Source: a virus
IMG/VR virus record: IMGVR_UViG_3300042397_000767
Coordinates: 1 to 25,737 of that record
Length of the DNA: 25,737 nt
Strand: one strand, 5' to 3'
How positions within the stretch are numbered: the stretch's first letter is position 1; each line of letters starts with the position of its first letter. Below the pieces are notes generated by a model. The model ran no database searches. It was not told where the DNA came from and saw only the letters and a program-made list of their open reading frames with translations. Shown in pieces: positions 569 through 16,848 of this stretch. The translations under genes were made by a program, and so were the position numbers.

Positions 569-3121
569 ATGAGCACATTTTACACCCGCGTTGACATGGT
601 CCGCGACAAACTATTAGTCCGCGGCTTCAAGGATGGCAAGCCTCACAAAGAGGAGGTCGAGTACGAACCGTACATGTTTGTTCCTTGTCGGACAGAATCA
701 AAGTACAAAACCATCGATGGCAAGGCTGTCGATAAGATTCACTTCTCGTCAATGTCCGAGTGCCGTAACTACATCCGTGAGTACAAGGATGTTGCGGGGA
801 TGCCGATCTACGGTCTCGATAAGTTTATCTTCGCTCACATCTACGACAGGTATAAGGGAGAGATCAAGTATGATCCATCTCTCGTCTCTGTGGTCACGCT
901 CGACATCGAAGTCGACATTGCTGGTGACCGTGGCTTCCCTAGTCCTGACAAGGCTCAGAACGAGATCACTCTGATCACGATCTCTCGCAATGGTAAGAAG
1001 TCTGTGTTCGGCTGTCAGCCATTCACCAACACCAATCCAGACGTGACATACTACCAATGCACGGACGAAGCTGCGTTGCTACGTTCGTTCCTCGATATGT
1101 GGAACTCCGTTGAATACTCGCCCCATATCGTCACTGGATGGAACATCGACTTCTTCGATATTCCCTACATTATTAACCGCATCGGTAAGGTGCTAGGGGA
1201 ATCTGCAAAGAGCAAACTTTCTCCATGGGGTATCGTGAAGTCGAGAGAGATCACCAACATTCACGGCAAGCAGACGATGTGGGATATGTACGGTATCTCT
1301 CATATCGACTACATGCAGCTGTATAAGAAGTTCGCATACACTCCTCAAGAGTCCTACTCGCTCGACCATGTCTGCGAACAAGAACTTGGTGAAAAGAAGA
1401 TCAACTACCACGACGAGGGCTACGACTCTCTTGCTGACCTGCAGGTTCGTAACTGGCAGCTGTATACCGAGTACAACATCCGAGACGTTGACCTTGTCGA
1501 CAAGCTCGATGATAAGTTGAAGCTGATTGAGCTGTGCATGGCGATGGCCTACGATGCAAAGGTCAACTACCACGACACATTCACAACTGTGGGTATATGG
1601 GATGTCATCATCCACAACTACCTACTCGATCGTTGCTATGTTGTTCCTCCTGTCAAGGTCGGGGACGCCAGAGACACTATCCTCGGTGGCTATGTGAAGG
1701 ATCCTCAGGTCGGAGATCATGATTGGGTTGTTTCGCTCGACTTGAACTCGCTGTATCCTCATATCATTATGCAGTATAATATCTCTCCCGACGTGTACAA
1801 GGGCGTGCTGCCAGATGCTCCAATCTACCTTGCAGATGGCGCAGACAAGGCTGAACCTCTTGTTCTGATGATGCTCGACGGTCACCTTAACGAAGAAAGA
1901 AAGAACTTCCTTCGTGAGAACAATCTGACTTGTACAGCTAACATGCGAATGTTCTCTCGGGAGAAGCAAGGGTTCCTTCCTGCGCTGATGCAGAAGATGT
2001 ACAACGATCGTGTGGTCTATAAGAACCAGATGATCGAGGCAAAGAAGCAGTATGAGCAGGACAAGGATCCTCAACTCGTCAAGGACATCGCCAGGTTCAA
2101 TAACCTCCAGATGGCTAAGAAGATTCAGCTGAACTCTGGATATGGTGCTCTTGCTAACATCTACAACCGTTGGTATCGTGCAGAGTTTGCTGAGGCGATT
2201 ACCTCTTGTGGTCAGCTGACTACTCGTTGGATCGAACGTAAGCTCAATGAATTTCTCAACAAGACGTTCAAGACTGAGCAAGTCGACTATGTGATTGCCT
2301 GTGATACTGACTCTGTCTATATCAAGGCAGAGAAATTCATTGAGCTGGCTGGCAAGGAGATGGACAAGCAGCAGGCTGTTCAGTATCTGGATAAGGTCTG
2401 CACGCAGGTGCTGGAACCGTTCATCGACAAGAAGTATGACGAGCTCTGCGCTTATGTCAATGGCTATGAGCAGAAGATGAAGATGAAGCGAGAGTGTATC
2501 GCTGACAAGGCTATCTGGACTGCTAAGAAGCGCTACATCCTCAACGTATACAACCAAGAAGGTGTACAGTACGATAAGGCAAAGCTCAAGATGCAAGGCA
2601 TCGAGGCTATCCGTACTTCGACTCCGATGGTCTGTCGTGATGGTATTAGGGACACGCTCTCTGTGATCATGAACTCAACAGAGGAGGCCATGCAGAAGTA
2701 CATCACCGAGTTCCAGGTCAAGTTCATGCAGCTACCGTTCGAAGCTATTGCATCACCTCGATCTGTGTCCGAGCTTGATAAATATATCGATACGAGTCTC
2801 ATCTTTAAGAAGGGGACACCTATCAACGTCAAGGGTGCTCTTGTGTACAACGATCTGCTCAAGAAGCATAAGCTGACGAAGAAGTATGAGGCGATTGCTG
2901 AGGGTCAGAAGATCAAGTACTCCTACCTTAAGCTCCCCAACCCTATTCAATGTAATGTGATTGCTACACCAGGTGCGCTTCCTCCGGAGTTCGGCCTGGA
3001 CAAATATATCGATCGACAGCTGCAGTTTGAGAAGTCATATCTCGAACCAATCAAGACGATCTGCACTGCGATCAACTGGAAGACTGAAAAGACATTCACA
3101 CTAGAGGACCTTTGGAAATAA
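569..3121 (+). CDS. 43: Family B DNA polymerase, T4 gp43-like
   Basis: The replicative polymerase has 850 residues (T4 gp43 has about 900). The 3'-5' exonuclease comes first: Exo I LDIEVD (D112, E114), Exo II GWNIDFFD (190-197) and Exo III YNIRDVD (302-308). Polymerase motif A is SLDLNSLYPHI (D391), motif B KKIQLNSGYG (517-526) and motif C ACDTDS (D579, D581), followed by KKRY (653-656). All catalytic aspartates are present, so the enzyme should be active in both synthesis and proofreading. The ATG at 569 follows GGAG and a consensus promoter at 520-547. Its stop overlaps the start of the next gene (TAATG), and uvsX and gp41 follow, as in T4-like marine phages. Confidence 0.98.
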   Translation: MSTFYTRVDMVRDKLLVRGFKDGKPHKEEVEYEPYMFVPCRTESKYKTIDGKAVDKIHFSSMSECRNYIREYKDVAGMPIYGLDKFIFAHIYDRYKGEIKYDPSLVSVVTLDIEVDIAGDRGFPSPDKAQNEITLITISRNGKKSVFGCQPFTNTNPDVTYYQCTDEAALLRSFLDMWNSVEYSPHIVTGWNIDFFDIPYIINRIGKVLGESAKSKLSPWGIVKSREITNIHGKQTMWDMYGISHIDYMQLYKKFAYTPQESYSLDHVCEQELGEKKINYHDEGYDSLADLQVRNWQLYTEYNIRDVDLVDKLDDKLKLIELCMAMAYDAKVNYHDTFTTVGIWDVIIHNYLLDRCYVVPPVKVGDARDTILGGYVKDPQVGDHDWVVSLDLNSLYPHIIMQYNISPDVYKGVLPDAPIYLADGADKAEPLVLMMLDGHLNEERKNFLRENNLTCTANMRMFSREKQGFLPALMQKMYNDRVVYKNQMIEAKKQYEQDKDPQLVKDIARFNNLQMAKKIQLNSGYGALANIYNRWYRAEFAEAITSCGQLTTRWIERKLNEFLNKTFKTEQVDYVIACDTDSVYIKAEKFIELAGKEMDKQQAVQYLDKVCTQVLEPFIDKKYDELCAYVNGYEQKMKMKRECIADKAIWTAKKRYILNVYNQEGVQYDKAKLKMQGIEAIRTSTPMVCRDGIRDTLSVIMNSTEEAMQKYITEFQVKFMQLPFEAIASPRSVSELDKYIDTSLIFKKGTPINVKGALVYNDLLKKHKLTKKYEAIAEGQKIKYSYLKLPNPIQCNVIATPGALPPEFGLDKYIDRQLQFEKSYLEPIKTICTAINWKTEKTFTLEDLWK

Positions 3122-3455: not shown

Positions 3456-4526
3456 ATGTCGCTTATTGATAAATTAAAGAAGAATTCTACATCAAAGTAC
3501 ACTGCTGTTCTATCTGAGTCCAAGTTCTTCTCGGACAAGGATATGATCCAGACCAAGGTGCCTATCATAAACGTTGCTCTGTCGGGCAAGCTCGATGGTG
3601 GCTTTACTCCTGGTCTGACGATGTTCGCAGGACCATCGAAGCACTTTAAGACTGCGTTCTCGCTTCTGATGGCAAAGTCGTATCTCGACAAGTATGCAGA
3701 TGCTGTGCTGTTGTTCTACGACTCAGAGTTCGGTACGCCACAAGCCTACTTCGATTCGTTTGGCATTGACACGTCACGTGTTCTCCATACACCTATCACA
3801 GACGTCGAACAGTTGAAGTTCGATATCATGAGTCAGCTCGATCAGATCGAGCGTGGTGATCACATCATCATCGTTGTTGACTCGATCGGCAACCTTGCTT
3901 CCAAGAAGGAAGTAGAAGACAGTCTGAACGAGAAGTCGGTTGCGGATATGTCTCGTGCAAAGCAGCTCAAGTCTCTGTTCCGTATGGTAACACCTCATCT
4001 CACACTCAAGGACATTCCTATGTGTGTCGTGAACCATACCTACATGGAAATCGGTATGTTCCCTAAAGCCATCGTCGGTGGTGGTACTGGATCGTACTAC
4101 TCGGCAGATAACATCTTCATCATTGGTCGCCAGCAAGAGAAGGATGGTAGTGAGGTTTCTGGCTACAACTTTATCATCAATGTGGAGAAGTCACGCCATG
4201 TCAGAGAAAAAGCTAAGATCCCAGTTACGGTTCTTCATGAGGGAGGCATTTCGCGATGGTCGGGGCTTATTGACCTGGCCACTAGTAGTGGTCATGTTAT
4301 CAAGCCTTCCAATGGTTGGTATCAACGAGTGGACATGTCTACAGGAGAGATTGAAGACAAGAAGTGGCGATTCAAAGATACAGAGTCAAAAGACTTCTGG
4401 CTGCCAGTACTCTCCTGCAGCAAATTTAGCGAGTTTGTGGAAAAGAAGTACCGAGTAGCATACGGCGACATTCTGCAAGACGAAGACTCTGTCCAAGACG
4501 TATATGATGCGATGGGTGAAGAATGA
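3456..4526 (+). CDS. uvsX: UvsX RecA-like recombinase
   Basis: This is the strand-exchange protein of T4-type recombination-dependent replication and repair, 356 residues long (T4 UvsX is about 390). The ATP site is GPSKHFKT (59-66), the phage-type Walker A form seen in T4 UvsX rather than the bacterial GPESSGKT. The expected Walker B strand is HIIIVVDSIGN (136-146), and YDSEFG (88-93) is in the place of the RecA catalytic Glu region. The ATG at 3456 follows AGGGAG. The gene has its own promoter at 3396-3424, and its last bases overlap the helicase start (ATGA at 4523-4526), tying it to gp41. Confidence 0.95.
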   Translation: MSLIDKLKKNSTSKYTAVLSESKFFSDKDMIQTKVPIINVALSGKLDGGFTPGLTMFAGPSKHFKTAFSLLMAKSYLDKYADAVLLFYDSEFGTPQAYFDSFGIDTSRVLHTPITDVEQLKFDIMSQLDQIERGDHIIIVVDSIGNLASKKEVEDSLNEKSVADMSRAKQLKSLFRMVTPHLTLKDIPMCVVNHTYMEIGMFPKAIVGGGTGSYYSADNIFIIGRQQEKDGSEVSGYNFIINVEKSRHVREKAKIPVTVLHEGGISRWSGLIDLATSSGHVIKPSNGWYQRVDMSTGEIEDKKWRFKDTESKDFWLPVLSCSKFSEFVEKKYRVAYGDILQDEDSVQDVYDAMGEE

Positions 4527-5911
4527 ACACAGAGAAAGTAATCCTTTCTAGTCTAGTTACGAACGATGATTATGCGAGGAAGGTTATCCCCTTCCTCGAC
4601 ACCTCCTACTTCCACACTAAGTCTGAGCAGATAGTCTTCAAGCTCATTGAGGACTATGTGGCCAAGTATAATGCCTTCCCTACAAAGGAAGCATTGCAGG
4701 TGGATCTCAGTGATAAGTCGATTCAGCAAGAGCTGTTCGATCAAGCAAAGCAGGTGATCGATGAGGTCACGAAGCCTAACACCCTCGAGCGTTCAGTGGA
4801 TTGGCTGGTCGACGTGACAGAGAAGTTCTGTCAGGACAAGGCAATCTACAACGCTATCATGGAATCGATCTCGATCCTAGATGATAAGAGTGAGAAGAAG
4901 CTGACAAAGGGCTCGATCCCTAAGATCCTGCAGGATGCTCTTGCTGTATCGTTTGACTCGTCTATCGGACATGACTTCATCGAGGATGCAGAGGCTCGCT
5001 ATGACTTCTATCATCGCAAGGAGCAACGTCTGAAGTTCGATCTGGACTACTTCAACAAGATCACTGGTGGAGGTCTGCCTAATAAGACTCTCAACATTGC
5101 TCTGGCTGGTACTGGCGTTGGTAAGTCGATGTTCATGTGTAGCTGTGCTGCAGCTAACCTCAAGGACCATAAGAACGTCTTGTACATCACCCTCGAGCTT
5201 GCAGAAGAACGAGTAGCAGAACGTATCGATGCTAACTTGCTCGACTGTCCTATTGGAGAGCTCGCAGACATGCCTAGGAACGTGTATGAGAAGCGAATGG
5301 CTAAGCTCAGGGAGACTTCGAAGGGCAAGCTGATCATCAAGGAGTATCCGACAGCATCTGCCGGCTCTGCGAACTTCCGTCACCTCATTCAAGAGTTGAA
5401 GCTCAAGAAGAACTTCATTCCTGACGTCATCTATATCGACTATCTGAACATCTGTACATCCAGCCGTATCAAGGCTGGTGCCAATGTCAACTCGTATACG
5501 GTGATCAAGGCAATCGCAGAAGAGCTTCGTGGTCTGGCTGTGGAGTTCAATGTTCCGATCATCTCGGCTACTCAGACTACTCGTTCAGGCTTCTCTAACT
5601 CTGATGTTGGTCTTGAGGATACCTCAGAGTCGTTTGGTCTGCCTGCCACGGCTGACTTCATGTTCGCTCTGATTACATCCGAAGAGCTTGCTGCCCTGAA
5701 TCAGATCATGGTCAAGCAGCTAAAGAATCGCTACAACGATCCTGACAGGTTCAAGAGGTTTGTGGTGAGTGTAGACAAGGCCAAGATGCGTCTGATGGAT
5801 GCAGAGGATGCTACAGACGACCTTGTAGACGATACGCCGGTGATGGATAAGACTCAGATCGGCCAGCGTATGCAGGATGAACGTAAGAACCTATTTGAAG
5901 GATTTAAGTGA
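4523..5911 (+). CDS. 41: Replicative DNA helicase, T4 gp41 / DnaB-like
   Basis: This is a hexameric 5'-3' helicase of the DnaB family, 462 residues long (T4 gp41 is 475). The N-terminal domain (about 1-150) is helical. The RecA-like motor carries Walker A AGTGVGKS (195-202), the LELAEE segment (223-228) that follows strand 2, Walker B VIYIDYL (301-307) and the ATQTTR sensor (348-353). The acidic C-terminal tail (residues 420-445) resembles the partner-binding tails of gp41 proteins. It overlaps uvsX by four bases and should load with gp61 primase, which is encoded far downstream at 23646. Confidence 0.95.
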   Translation: MNTEKVILSSLVTNDDYARKVIPFLDTSYFHTKSEQIVFKLIEDYVAKYNAFPTKEALQVDLSDKSIQQELFDQAKQVIDEVTKPNTLERSVDWLVDVTEKFCQDKAIYNAIMESISILDDKSEKKLTKGSIPKILQDALAVSFDSSIGHDFIEDAEARYDFYHRKEQRLKFDLDYFNKITGGGLPNKTLNIALAGTGVGKSMFMCSCAAANLKDHKNVLYITLELAEERVAERIDANLLDCPIGELADMPRNVYEKRMAKLRETSKGKLIIKEYPTASAGSANFRHLIQELKLKKNFIPDVIYIDYLNICTSSRIKAGANVNSYTVIKAIAEELRGLAVEFNVPIISATQTTRSGFSNSDVGLEDTSESFGLPATADFMFALITSEELAALNQIMVKQLKNRYNDPDRFKRFVVSVDKAKMRLMDAEDATDDLVDDTPVMDKTQIGQRMQDERKNLFEGFK

Positions 5912-6156
5912 TGGTTAATTACAAGATGCAGCCTACTGGACACATTGTAGACGTTGGTGGGGGGTTCTCTATCGCGGGAGCTGATGTCATAGAAACCAAG
6001 ACCAACCAGGTCATCGCAAGCAGTATCCCAATGCCCGATGCCAAAGCAATGGCACGCCACCTCAACCTGGGCGGTGGATTCAATGGTTCCACGCCAGCAT
6101 TTTTTTTAAATAAACCTGGGAAATTAAATAATCAAGAAGAAAGTTATTATAAATAA
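5911..6156 (+). CDS. Small conserved-looking protein after gp41
   Basis: The protein has 81 residues from the ATG at 5911; a GTG at 5908 that overlaps the gp41 stop is an alternative start. The ribosome site is AAGGA (5898-5902). The sequence has glycine-rich turns (VGGGFSIAG and LGGGFNG) and the run ADVIETKTNQVIASS, suggesting a compact beta-rich fold. I do not recognise the family. The last 18 codons are oddly AT-rich and follow a run of eight T (6100-6107). One T fewer would end the protein right after the run, so the C-terminus may be an artefact or a recent extension. The stop codon lies within the TATAAATA element at 6148-6155. Confidence 0.7.
   Translation: MVNYKMQPTGHIVDVGGGFSIAGADVIETKTNQVIASSIPMPDAKAMARHLNLGGGFNGSTPAFFLNKPGKLNNQEESYYK
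6148..6155 (+). promoter_or_regulatory. Candidate late promoter before the structured RNA
   Basis: An exact TATAAATA lies at the end of the preceding gene. Transcription would start near 6161, a few bases before the closing stem of the folded RNA at 6166. A TATAAT at 6162-6167 lacks a good -35 box, so the late-type element is the better candidate. Confidence 0.55.
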
Positions 6157-6160
6157 AACA

Positions 6161-6300
6161 TTATAATGCGTGTAAGTGTGGCATGTTCACACTAGTGGCA
6201 AGTGCTTCGGCGACTGGAATTGACGGGGAAGCTGCAAGGCAGGTGGGGTTCCTCCCGTCCACGCATAGAGGGCAGGCTCGAAAGGGCCTGCCCTTTTTTT
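6161..6300 (+). ncRNA. Candidate structured small RNA of about 140 nt
   Basis: No reading frame fits this gap, but it folds well on paper. A closing stem ATGCGTG (6166-6172)/CACGCAT (6260-6266) encloses three arms. Arm one is AGTGTG (6175-6180)/CACACT (6188-6193). Arm two is AGTGC and GCGACT around a TTCG tetraloop, with one bulge. Arm three is GACGGG (6222-6227)/CCCGTC (6254-6259) with an inner CTGC/GCAG hairpin. A strong terminator (6269-6300) follows at once, and a TATAAATA element precedes it. It does not fit a tRNA fold, and I recognise no known RNA family. Confidence 0.6.
6269..6300 (+). terminator. Strong rho-independent terminator
   Basis: AGGGCAGGCTC, a GAAA tetraloop, then GGGCCTGCCCT: eleven pairs including one U-G, followed by six further T and, after one G, four more. 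It closes the replication transcript and the candidate RNA, and insulates the early promoter at 6311. Confidence 0.92.
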
Positions 6301-6310
6301 GTTTTCCTTG

Positions 6311-6339
6311 TTGACCTTTTTTTGAAAACGTCCTATATT
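6311..6339 (+). promoter_or_regulatory. Early promoter of the small-gene island
   Basis: TTGACC (6311-6316), a 17-base spacer starting TTTTTTTGAAAA, and TATATT (6334-6339). The predicted start near 6346 rules out the ATG at 6350 as an ordinary start and favours the ATG at 6371. Confidence 0.85.
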
Positions 6340-6678: not shown

Positions 6679-6707
6679 TTGACCTTTTTGCGAAAAAAAG
6701 GGATAAG
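6679..6707 (+). promoter_or_regulatory. Early promoter of the TTGACC family
   Basis: TTGACC (6679-6684), a 17-base spacer starting TTTTTGCGAAAAA, and GATAAG (6702-6707). The start is expected near 6714. The T-run/A-run dyad in the spacer matches the other members. Confidence 0.75.
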
Positions 6708-7338: not shown

Positions 7339-7350
7339 TTAAAATAACTG

Positions 7351-7379
7351 TTGACCTTTTCGTGAAAATGTCCGATAAG
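7351..7379 (+). promoter_or_regulatory. Early promoter of the TTGACC family
   Basis: TTGACC (7351-7356), the 17-base spacer TTTTCGTGAAAATGTCC and GATAAG (7374-7379). The spacer contains the perfect inverted repeat TTTTC-GT-GAAAA. The start is expected near 7386. Confidence 0.82.
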
Positions 7380-7408
7380 GGGGTATCAAGAGTGAAAAGG
7401 AATTTGAA

Positions 7409-14430: not shown

Positions 14431-16848
14431 ATGGAAGTTAAGAAGAACGACACCAATACTGTCAAATCAAAGCCTGTTAAACTGAAGGCAAAAGGCCGCT
14501 CCCTCACTGGTCAGCCTTTGGATGATATCGATCTCAATCCTCAGCTTGATACTACCGATAAACAACAGGTGCAAGAACAATCTCGTGGAGGCGTGGTCCT
14601 GACCTTTGGTCGCATGAACCCCCCTACAGTTGGTCATGAAAAGCTGGTGAAAAAAGTTGTAGCAGTCGCCTCACAGGCGAAGGCAACACCAATGGTATTC
14701 CTATCCCATTCCCAAGATAAGAAAAAGAATCCTCTCGAGTATGAGGATAAGATTCGCTTTGCGAAGGCTGCATTCGGTAACGTTGTCCAGTCCTCTCCTG
14801 CAAAGACTCTAATAGATATTCTCAAAACATTGCAGCAAAAGTTTGAAGAGCTGACCCTCGTTGTCGGCTCTGACCGCGTTAGTGAATTCCAAACTCTTCT
14901 CAATAAGTACAATGGTAAAGACTTTACCTTCGCCAAGATCAATGTCGTCTCTGCAGGCGAAAGAGATCCTGACGCAGAAGGTGTAGAAGGTATGTCTGCC
15001 TCTAAGATGAGAGCAGCAGTACAGTCAGGGGATGAGCAGAAGTTCATATCTGGTCTTCCACAGAGACTCAAGTCGCATGGTAAAGACGTCTTCAAGATGG
15101 TCTCTGCTGGTATGCAGCTTCATGAAGAGTTAGAAGCAGAGAACCTTCTCTCAGAAGTTCTTTCGCTCGATCAGCGCCGTAAACGCGCTCTTATCATGAA
15201 GCGCTATTCAGGTAAGATCGAAAGAGCAAGAGAGCTGGCTCGCAAGAGAATGGCCACTACAGAGAAGCTCAAGAAGAGATCCTTCATCCAAGCAAGGGAC
15301 ATCGTACGCCGCAGAGTAGCAGGTCGTCGTGGCGCAGAGTATGCGACACTATCTCCTTCTGAAAAGATCCAAATTGATACAGCAGTAGAGAAGCGTAAAG
15401 GCGCAATCAAGAGGATTGCAAGCCGCCTTATGCCACAAGTTAAAGCTGCAGAGTATGCAAGACTGAAGTCATTTACTCATGGCGCTCAGATGCAGCATCT
15501 GCATTCGGGTCCTGCTGTCCAGCATGAACAGTTCAATGAGGCGTTCGAAGAGTTTGCAAAGACTATCGAGATCGTTACAGTAGACGATATCCTCAAGGAA
15601 ATGACTGATCTCGTTCTTGACAAGATCATCACCGAGAAGCAGATCCAAGCACTCGAAAAGAGAGCTCAGAGATCCGGTATCCAATATGATCTACTCGAGC
15701 AAGTTTATATCCGTGGTCTGCTCGACTCAATGGGCGATCAGAACATTGCTTTCAACAGAGTCAATGCATTCTGCTGTGGCGGTAAGACTGCTATGAACGA
15801 AGACTTCGATCTATACGAACAGATCGAAAGAGAAGACCTCAACACAGTATTCGAAGCTGGTCTATGGGATAACATCCATGCCAAGCGTAAGCGTATCAAA
15901 GCTGGATCCGGTGAGCGTATGCGCAAGCCAGGATCTGAAGGCGCACCTACAAAGCAGAATTTCAGAGATGCATCTGAGTCAATCGAAGAAGGTTATGACG
16001 TCAACTCGAAGCACTACAAGGCTCTGACTGATCTCGATCTTAATACTAAGAACCGTGACATGACCACTCAGAATGATGGTTACGGTCCTTTGAATCCTGG
16101 CGACACAAAGGGATCCAAGTCTTTCTGGGAAGAAAAGGCTAAAATGTGGAAGACCACAACTGAAGCTGCAATGGAAGCTCGCTGTGGCAACTGTGCTGCA
16201 TTCAACCAGGCGCCTGCTATTATGAAAAAGATGGCAGAAGGTCTTGGACCAGCTGGCGAGAAGATTCAGGACCTCGCGAACCTTGGTTTCTGTGAGCTGT
16301 TCGAGTTCAAGTGTGCTGGTGATAGAACCTGCAACAAGTGGTTGGTCAACGGTCCTATCACGGAGAAGTCTGCAGGAACAGAAGCTCGTAAGAAGATCGA
16401 AAAGGTTGACCGTAAGCCACCTCACACAGAGCACGGTAAGCAGGCAGAGATCCAGACAAAGATCATCGACGAAGAAGGCAACTCACAGCCTAATCCTAGG
16501 AAGAGATTGCAGGGCACAGATTCACTCGTAAAGGCATACAAGAAGGACACTCCTGGTGAAGGTCTTAACGAATCGTTCAATATTGCCTATGGAGCTGGTA
16601 TTGGTATCACTCTAACAGCAGCTGATATGGGCATCAAAGCCCAAGGTGGTTTTGCGCTACACCCTTCTGTAATCCAGCAAATGGAAGATGAGGAATTAGA
16701 AGAGGCTGCAAAGACAGCTGACAAGGCTCCTGTAGTTATTCCTGCGCACAACAACGCAAGTGGTAAAGCTGTCCCAGCGAAGACTGTAATGCGTAGAAAG
16801 TCTAAAACAATCGTCAATAGTGGCGACAACCCATCGGACGGTCAATAA
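14431..16848 (+). CDS. Nucleotidyltransferase fused to phage core / structural modules
   Basis: The protein has 805 residues. Residues 54-200 form a cytidylyltransferase-like (NMNAT-type) Rossmann domain: GRMNPPTVGH (60-69) is the (H/T)xGH site, VVGSDRVSEF (144-153) follows, and GMSASKMR (187-194) is the ISxxxR-like motif. Next come a Lys/Arg-rich helical module (about 243-350), an acidic helical part (370-460) and the common phage module GLWDNIHAKRKRIKAG (about 476-491). A cysteine module (RCGNCAAFN to CAGDRTCNKWLVNGP, about 582-646) and a Gly/Ala-rich tail complete it. L/I-x-E sites lie between modules. It sits behind a late promoter. I infer a virion or prohead-core protein whose enzyme domain may act on nucleotides after infection; the substrate is unknown. 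Confidence 0.8.
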   Translation: MEVKKNDTNTVKSKPVKLKAKGRSLTGQPLDDIDLNPQLDTTDKQQVQEQSRGGVVLTFGRMNPPTVGHEKLVKKVVAVASQAKATPMVFLSHSQDKKKNPLEYEDKIRFAKAAFGNVVQSSPAKTLIDILKTLQQKFEELTLVVGSDRVSEFQTLLNKYNGKDFTFAKINVVSAGERDPDAEGVEGMSASKMRAAVQSGDEQKFISGLPQRLKSHGKDVFKMVSAGMQLHEELEAENLLSEVLSLDQRRKRALIMKRYSGKIERARELARKRMATTEKLKKRSFIQARDIVRRRVAGRRGAEYATLSPSEKIQIDTAVEKRKGAIKRIASRLMPQVKAAEYARLKSFTHGAQMQHLHSGPAVQHEQFNEAFEEFAKTIEIVTVDDILKEMTDLVLDKIITEKQIQALEKRAQRSGIQYDLLEQVYIRGLLDSMGDQNIAFNRVNAFCCGGKTAMNEDFDLYEQIEREDLNTVFEAGLWDNIHAKRKRIKAGSGERMRKPGSEGAPTKQNFRDASESIEEGYDVNSKHYKALTDLDLNTKNRDMTTQNDGYGPLNPGDTKGSKSFWEEKAKMWKTTTEAAMEARCGNCAAFNQAPAIMKKMAEGLGPAGEKIQDLANLGFCELFEFKCAGDRTCNKWLVNGPITEKSAGTEARKKIEKVDRKPPHTEHGKQAEIQTKIIDEEGNSQPNPRKRLQGTDSLVKAYKKDTPGEGLNESFNIAYGAGIGITLTAADMGIKAQGGFALHPSVIQQMEDEELEEAAKTADKAPVVIPAHNNASGKAVPAKTVMRRKSKTIVNSGDNPSDGQ

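Follow-up and report, generated by a model that had tools for sequence, protein, structure and literature searches.

The DNA that follows the helicase gene gp41 in the window (by which we mean the whole 25.7-kb stretch analysed here, a virus record of the IMG/VR type that carries T4-like replication genes in order) raises the question of whether the short stretch between a small ORF and the next island of genes specifies an RNA and, if it does, whether such an RNA is an appendage of its neighbours or a gene in its own right. Comparison with related contigs leaves little doubt that the stretch belongs to a real, large and undescribed RNA family of uncultured T4-like phages, of which the window is the first member to have been noticed. 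There is also strong reason to regard the RNA as an independent late gene of ~140 nt; the transcript and its late expression are inferred from the sequence.

The RNA gene in the window

The order 3' of gp41 is small ORF, RNA stretch and then a small-gene island behind a sigma-70-type promoter (TTGACC-17-TATATT) that begins at 6311, eleven bases past the T-run of the terminator. The RNA gene itself (6148-6300) consists of a late promoter, a four-helix core (6166-6266) and an intrinsic terminator. The features referred to below are as follows.

569-3121: DNA polymerase
3456-4526: uvsX
4523-5911: gp41 helicase
5908-6156, + strand: small ORF of 82 aa, LNLGGGFxGxTPxF family, upstream of the RNA and regularly adjoining it
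6148-6155, + strand: T4-type late promoter element TATAAATA, exact match
6166-6172, + strand: P1 closing helix, 5' strand AUGCGUG, pairs with 6260-6266
6173-6174, + strand: UA linker between P1 and P2 in the family parse, common among members
6175-6193, + strand: P2 hairpin AGUGUGG-CAUGU-UCACACU, sequence varies and pairing is kept
6194-6202, + strand: junction J2/3, family consensus RGAGGCAMG, AGUGGCAAG in the window
about 6202-6214, + strand: P3 hairpin, UUCG loop in the window, length variable
6216-6221, + strand: junction J3/4, consensus GGAAYA, GGAAUU in the window
6222-6259, + strand: P4 arm, 6-bp helix 6222-6227/6254-6259 stacked directly on P1
6231-6240, + strand: optional P5 hairpin GCU-GCAA-GGC within P4
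6241-6253, + strand: P6 hairpin AGG-UGGGGUU-CCU, 7-nt loop UGGGGUU at 6244-6250
6260-6266, + strand: P1 closing helix, 3' strand CACGCAU, pairs with 6166-6172
6268-6300, + strand: intrinsic terminator, GAAA-loop hairpin of 12-13 pairs, seven T

The late promoter overlaps the last codons of the small ORF. T4 late transcription starts ~6 nt past the element, so that the predicted start of the RNA is ~6161. The P5 hairpin reads GCC-GCAA-GGC in one other member (L001) and is absent or different in other members.

An earlier note, made from the sequence alone, had proposed a self-contained structured RNA with its own late promoter and terminator and without a known family. Both proposals held, the first being strengthened by the comparisons described below (with the transcript still inferred) and the second by the absence of any Rfam match. 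Every element that it named is present where it had been placed: the promoter TATAAATA at 6148-6155, the closing stem 6166-6172/6260-6266, three internal arms of which one has a TTCG loop (P2, P3 with UUCG, and P4) and an early promoter eleven bases behind the terminator, which is the sigma-70-type promoter at 6311. The terminator, described as an eleven-pair GAAA-loop hairpin, has 12-13 pairs instead, and the statement that the gap holds no gene is correct only in part, since no other gene lies there yet the promoter overlaps the end of the small ORF.

The stretch including the terminator has a fold z of -4.3 and beats all 200 shuffles. The core without the terminator is unremarkable (z -0.66), as are 68 family cores (mean z -0.75). 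Because the core is not significant in this respect, folding energy alone proves only the terminator; the folding energy of the core was rejected as proof of RNA structure in window and family alike, which leaves comparison as the basis of the case.

The early promoters of the small-gene island (6311-6339, 6679-6705 and 7350-7380) resemble copies of one long element, TTGACCTTTT..GAAAA.., which exceeds ordinary -35/-10 boxes in length, and two of the copies are 86% alike across 29 bases. A second blastn match in the window (7349-7377), entertained as a second RNA, was rejected as a copy of this repeated promoter. Further along, the first part of an 805-aa protein (14431-16848) matches phage cytidyltransferase families (phrog_3041 and phrog_395), and the protein has additional partial PHROG matches.

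Comparative evidence for the structure

The first set of relatives consisted of 80 IMG/VR contigs fetched with gp41, many of which carry the same element behind that gene. A pattern scan together with the gp41 loci gave 95 true distinct sequences; one viral pattern match (L111) was a false positive in which P4 fails to pair. Because the pattern scan imposes the conserved motifs, the analysis was repeated on two sets of IMG/VR contigs fetched by protein (gp41 or the small upstream protein), the RNA being in neither query. A covariance model finds the RNA in 26 of the 80 gp41-fetched contigs and in 77 of the 80 fetched by the small protein. The model was trained on motif-bearing members, and very divergent members could be missed by it. 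The window, itself among the training rows, is scored at E = 1e-13, and a model built without it scores it at E = 1e-5. The parsed order of the family is P1 (6-15 bp), UA, P2, (A)GAGGCAMG, P3, GGAAYA, P4 (6 bp), optional P5, P6 (3 bp with the loop UGGGGUU), P4', P1' and terminator.

The less biased supports for this architecture are a fixed-offset test of P4 and a MAFFT alignment, given that alignments fitted by the model lean towards structure. When the six bases after GGAAYA are set against the six bases that begin one position after GGUUCC, without any alignment, all six pairs form in every one of the 95 distinct sequences, among which there are 27 true sequence combinations. For 20 members aligned by MAFFT, covariation is 0.472 vs 0.204 (sd 0.018) when shuffled and at most 0.154 with partners slid; RNAalifold applied to this alignment independently gives P1, P2, P4 and P6, and misses P3. 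Covariation among 69 model-aligned members is 0.702 (0.228 shuffled, at most 0.122 slid), and the values for the gp41-fetched and small-protein-fetched sets are 0.755 vs 0.252 and 0.662 vs 0.230, respectively. All four alignments stand far above their shuffled and slid controls; in the last three, covariation reaches about three times what shuffling gives and is lost whenever partners are slid.

The individual helices are not equally well supported. P1 has two-sided changes in all 6 modelled pairs, with 98.1% of cells paired (A3 alignment), so that the covariance search beside gp41 for compensatory changes in the closing stem, proposed in the earlier note, has been run and passed. The inner pairs of P2 are paired in 93% of cells, with many compensatory changes, and P4 in 100% (69-member alignment and both protein-fetched sets). 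P3 is the weakest helix, with 64-73% of cells paired and compensatory changes present. All three closing pairs of P6 covary while its loop stays fixed, the variants being CCG/CGG in L027 and L044, CAC/GUG in L032 and CAG/CUG in L033. A GGAA/UUCC pseudoknot, suggested by two conserved segments, was rejected since P6 covaries in these four members while GGAA stays.

The helices P1, P2, P4 and P6 are thus real by comparison, and P3 more weakly so. RGAGGCAMG, GGAAYA and the loop UGGGGUU are strongly conserved single-stranded elements. In the sets fetched by the small protein and by gp41, the loop is the same in all 54 and all 23 distinct sequences, respectively, as is the GGAA of J3/4; in J2/3, GGC is invariant and GGCA is present in 93-96% of these two sets, which were fetched without the RNA motif. 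We consider the covariation to be decisive and hold with very high confidence that a conserved RNA structure exists.

Self-complementary P2 loops (CUGCAG, GUGCAC, UGCGCA and CAUG; 6182-6186 in the window) are commoner than in shuffled sequences (26 of 73 vs 14.6) and might conceivably allow kissing dimers in some members; the count is inflated by related rows, and most loops lack self-complementarity. Two near relatives, L001 and L002, have identical RNA cores and differ in their terminator hairpins and the sequence behind them, as if terminator and downstream island had been swapped as a block.

A unit with its own promoter and terminator

The unit of promoter, RNA and terminator is conserved. 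Of 73 members, 68 have the late promoter NNTAAATA at a distance of 9-18 nt ahead of P1, where shuffled sequences would give 2.1, and 69 have an intrinsic terminator behind the RNA (2.95 expected). The hairpin of the terminator stands apart from P1, without overlap, and differs in sequence among members.

Most members have the RNA codirectional with gp41 and the small ORF. Others carry it on the opposite strand of the same gap, with its own late promoter kept. A tree of gp41 places the inverted members in a single branch (SH-aLRT 100), which comprises 13 inverted rows, one contig that lacks the RNA and two whose length does not allow the orientation to be told; next to it, with weak support, is the group of codirectional members. 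A 3' UTR of gp41 should always be codirectional with that gene, an expectation not met by the 13 of 35 RNA-bearing tree rows that are inverted. A riboswitch or cis-regulatory leader should precede a conserved gene on the same strand, and no conserved downstream gene was found among the members compared, in which the downstream genes differ. Since the inverted clade keeps its own promoter, the RNA is not a 3' UTR, leader or riboswitch, and the inversion relative to gp41 with the promoter kept means that the unit behaves as its own gene. What would be expected of an autonomous small RNA gene (own promoter, structured body, terminator and a conserved unit) is met, and each of 10 large phage contigs with a match has one confident copy. 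Late transcription is inferred from the promoter type, and action in trans from the independence of the RNA from its neighbours.

The small protein upstream belongs to a family of about 60-80 aa (82 aa in the window). In 77 of the 80 contigs fetched by this family the RNA lies directly behind the protein, and in the inverted clade, where both occur, the two remain neighbours although the RNA has flipped. Six contigs (L011-L013, L254, L292 and L297), all with at least 400 nt downstream, carry the protein without the RNA, which can therefore be lost; four gp41 contigs have the RNA and no recognisable small protein. No Pfam family matches the protein, tblastn against GenBank phages finds nothing, and the only PHROG match (phrog_29065) is weak; the predicted structure is of modest quality, at a pLDDT of 73.5, and no fold in the PDB matches it significantly.

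Distribution and searches for known families

A blastn search with four family members against 50,697 GenBank phages found none, apart from one chance match of 25 nt. Under stricter filters the model had no confident match in 12 cultured or named phages, among them T4, HTVC008M, Melnitz, P-SSM2, phiM12, Cr30 and DLP6. The RNA is kept across a gp41 divergence of roughly 40% in an environmental lineage, no cultured member having been found. A pattern scan of bacterial genome contigs revealed no credible bacterial carrier; five matches were rejected, the best of them (L226) lying inside a protein-coding gene and the other four scoring weakly and being about the number that we estimate for chance.

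Rfam 15 contains no family that reaches its gathering cut-off in the window or in 12 loci (nine of them carrying the RNA), and relaxing E to as much as 10 brought up, in four members, nothing beyond terminator-like or chance matches. ARAGORN detected no tRNA or tmRNA in the window or in 15 family loci. Three resemblances were considered and rejected: a likeness of the window's GGAAGCUGCAAGGCAG to the signal recognition particle, confined to the optional P5 of the window's subgroup, and likenesses to the c-di-GMP riboswitch and RNase P, which had no Rfam support. No description of the RNA was found in the literature searched, which was limited to open-licence papers. What is new is the class of RNA, with its sequence, fold and invariant loop; small RNAs of phages are, as a broader idea, already known.

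Comparison with known systems

Near counterparts in kind are the T4 species 1 and 2 RNAs (rnaC, 139 nt, and rnaD, 119 nt), which are likewise small, stable RNAs of a T4-like phage, of similar length and of unknown function. They differ in sitting in a tRNA cluster, and homology is not supported, since the model R2 has no match in the T4 genome (stricter filters) or in the rnaC/rnaD stretch (L208). Structured RNAs carried by phages and known mostly from environmental DNA include GOLLD, ROOL, manA, wcaG, PhotoRC and the glutamine riboswitch (PMC12286853, PMC2864571, PMC9964418, PMC9004378). The new RNA is, like these, conserved, structured, phage-borne and metagenomic, but Rfam gives no match between them. 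GOLLD and ROOL are several times larger; manA, wcaG, PhotoRC and the glutamine riboswitch are mostly leaders of downstream genes, which the new RNA is not. The packaging RNA of phage phi29 is similar in size and also has a fold of its own, but there is no Rfam match of any kind to it, and a pRNA is not known to have a role in packaging of the T4 type. The promoter element of the unit matches the consensus of T4 late promoters, which drive virion genes, whereas here a lone structured RNA stands behind it.

Proposed function and alternative explanations

We favour, as a likely reading, an autonomous late RNA with a structured body that acts in trans and uses UGGGGUU to bind a conserved partner; expression, action in trans and binding are inferred, and the partner and the outcome are unknown. 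In this view the T4-type late transcription apparatus would make an RNA of ~140 nt late in infection, ended by the intrinsic terminator. P1 and P4 would stack, with P2 and P3 branching off and the two conserved purine-rich junctions building the core, and the invariant loop would project from the tip of P4 and bind a single conserved partner, which may be a protein or a universally conserved RNA, of host or phage. An unchanging loop on a covarying stem suggests a surface for binding, not the variable seed of an antisense RNA. No partner has been found. The regulatory or host-interacting role suggested in the earlier note remains possible.

The best surviving alternative, which we nevertheless think improbable, is an antisense regulatory RNA whose exposed UGGGGUU pairs with AACCCCA in phage or host mRNAs. 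Its small size, own promoter, T-run terminator and exposed loop are typical of trans-acting small RNAs. Against this, AACCCCA is not enriched in phage DNA once the antisense strand of the RNA genes themselves is set aside (212 occurrences, of which about 140-150 are that strand, vs 91 expected), and most antisense RNAs have seeds that drift, unlike a loop kept invariant over deep divergence.

A second alternative, for which we see very little support, is that P6 imitates the P-loop (helix 80) of 23S rRNA and binds CCA ends or P-loop ligands, serving as a decoy or as a means of tuning or blocking translation. E. coli 23S rRNA holds GAC-UGGGGCG-GUC (GACUGGGGCGGUC), in which a 3-bp stem likewise closes a 7-nt loop beginning with UGGGG, and tRNA pairs with the P-loop through C75 (to G2251) and C74 (to G2252) (PMC6337491). 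P6 (NNN-UGGGGUU-N'N'N') has the same dimensions; it shares the first five bases of the loop, and its stem can vary. However, five of seven loop bases agree and the last two differ (CG vs UU); the five-base likeness was sought after the fact and may be chance; the context is rRNA in one case and a late phage RNA in the other, the rest of the RNA being unlike the surroundings of helix 80; and there are no binding data. The likeness, an analogy only, might serve as a lead and is not a test. A bolder form, in which a copy of the P-loop hairpin on a four-helix scaffold captures tRNA CCA ends or P-loop-binding factors, is equally doubtful; if it were true, a phage RNA would take control of translation, or stop it, during late infection.

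No better placed is the idea that the RNA is one half of a small ribonucleoprotein, with the adjacent LNLGGGFxGxTPxF protein as the other. The adjacency in 77 of 80 contigs, and its survival of the flip, speak for it. Against it, each partner occurs without the other (the four and six contigs mentioned above), the adjacency may reflect no more than shared ancestry, and the protein model is modest and lacks a significant fold match. The small protein could be a partner of the RNA, but this has not been shown.

The remaining alternatives can be all but dismissed. A cis element (a structured 3' end of the replication mRNA, an attenuator, or a leader or riboswitch of downstream genes) would fit the majority of relatives, in which the RNA follows the gp41 transcription unit directly on the same strand and is closed by a terminator, but a whole clade is inverted with its own late promoter, the downstream genes differ, and the terminator is separate from P1 and variable in sequence; the earlier suggestion of a 3' end protecting the replication mRNA fails on the clade (SH-aLRT 100) in which the RNA is on the strand opposite to gp41. 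An element acting as DNA (a protein site, an origin or a packaging signal) would agree with the conserved position by the replicative helicase gene, but G-U pairs are kept at positions where an element of DNA would require A-T or G-C (for example, 8 in the first P4 pair and 6 in each of two P1 pairs of the 69-member alignment), and the oriented promoter and terminator fit transcription.

Implications for the T4-like phages

To our knowledge, dedicated late noncoding RNAs have been little described in T4-like phages, and the stable RNAs of T4 have no assigned function. The covariance model of the family provides a means of searching metatranscriptomes. The invariant loop on a changing stem predicts that these phages would make a late transcript of ~140 nt with one conserved partner, reached by UGGGGUU.
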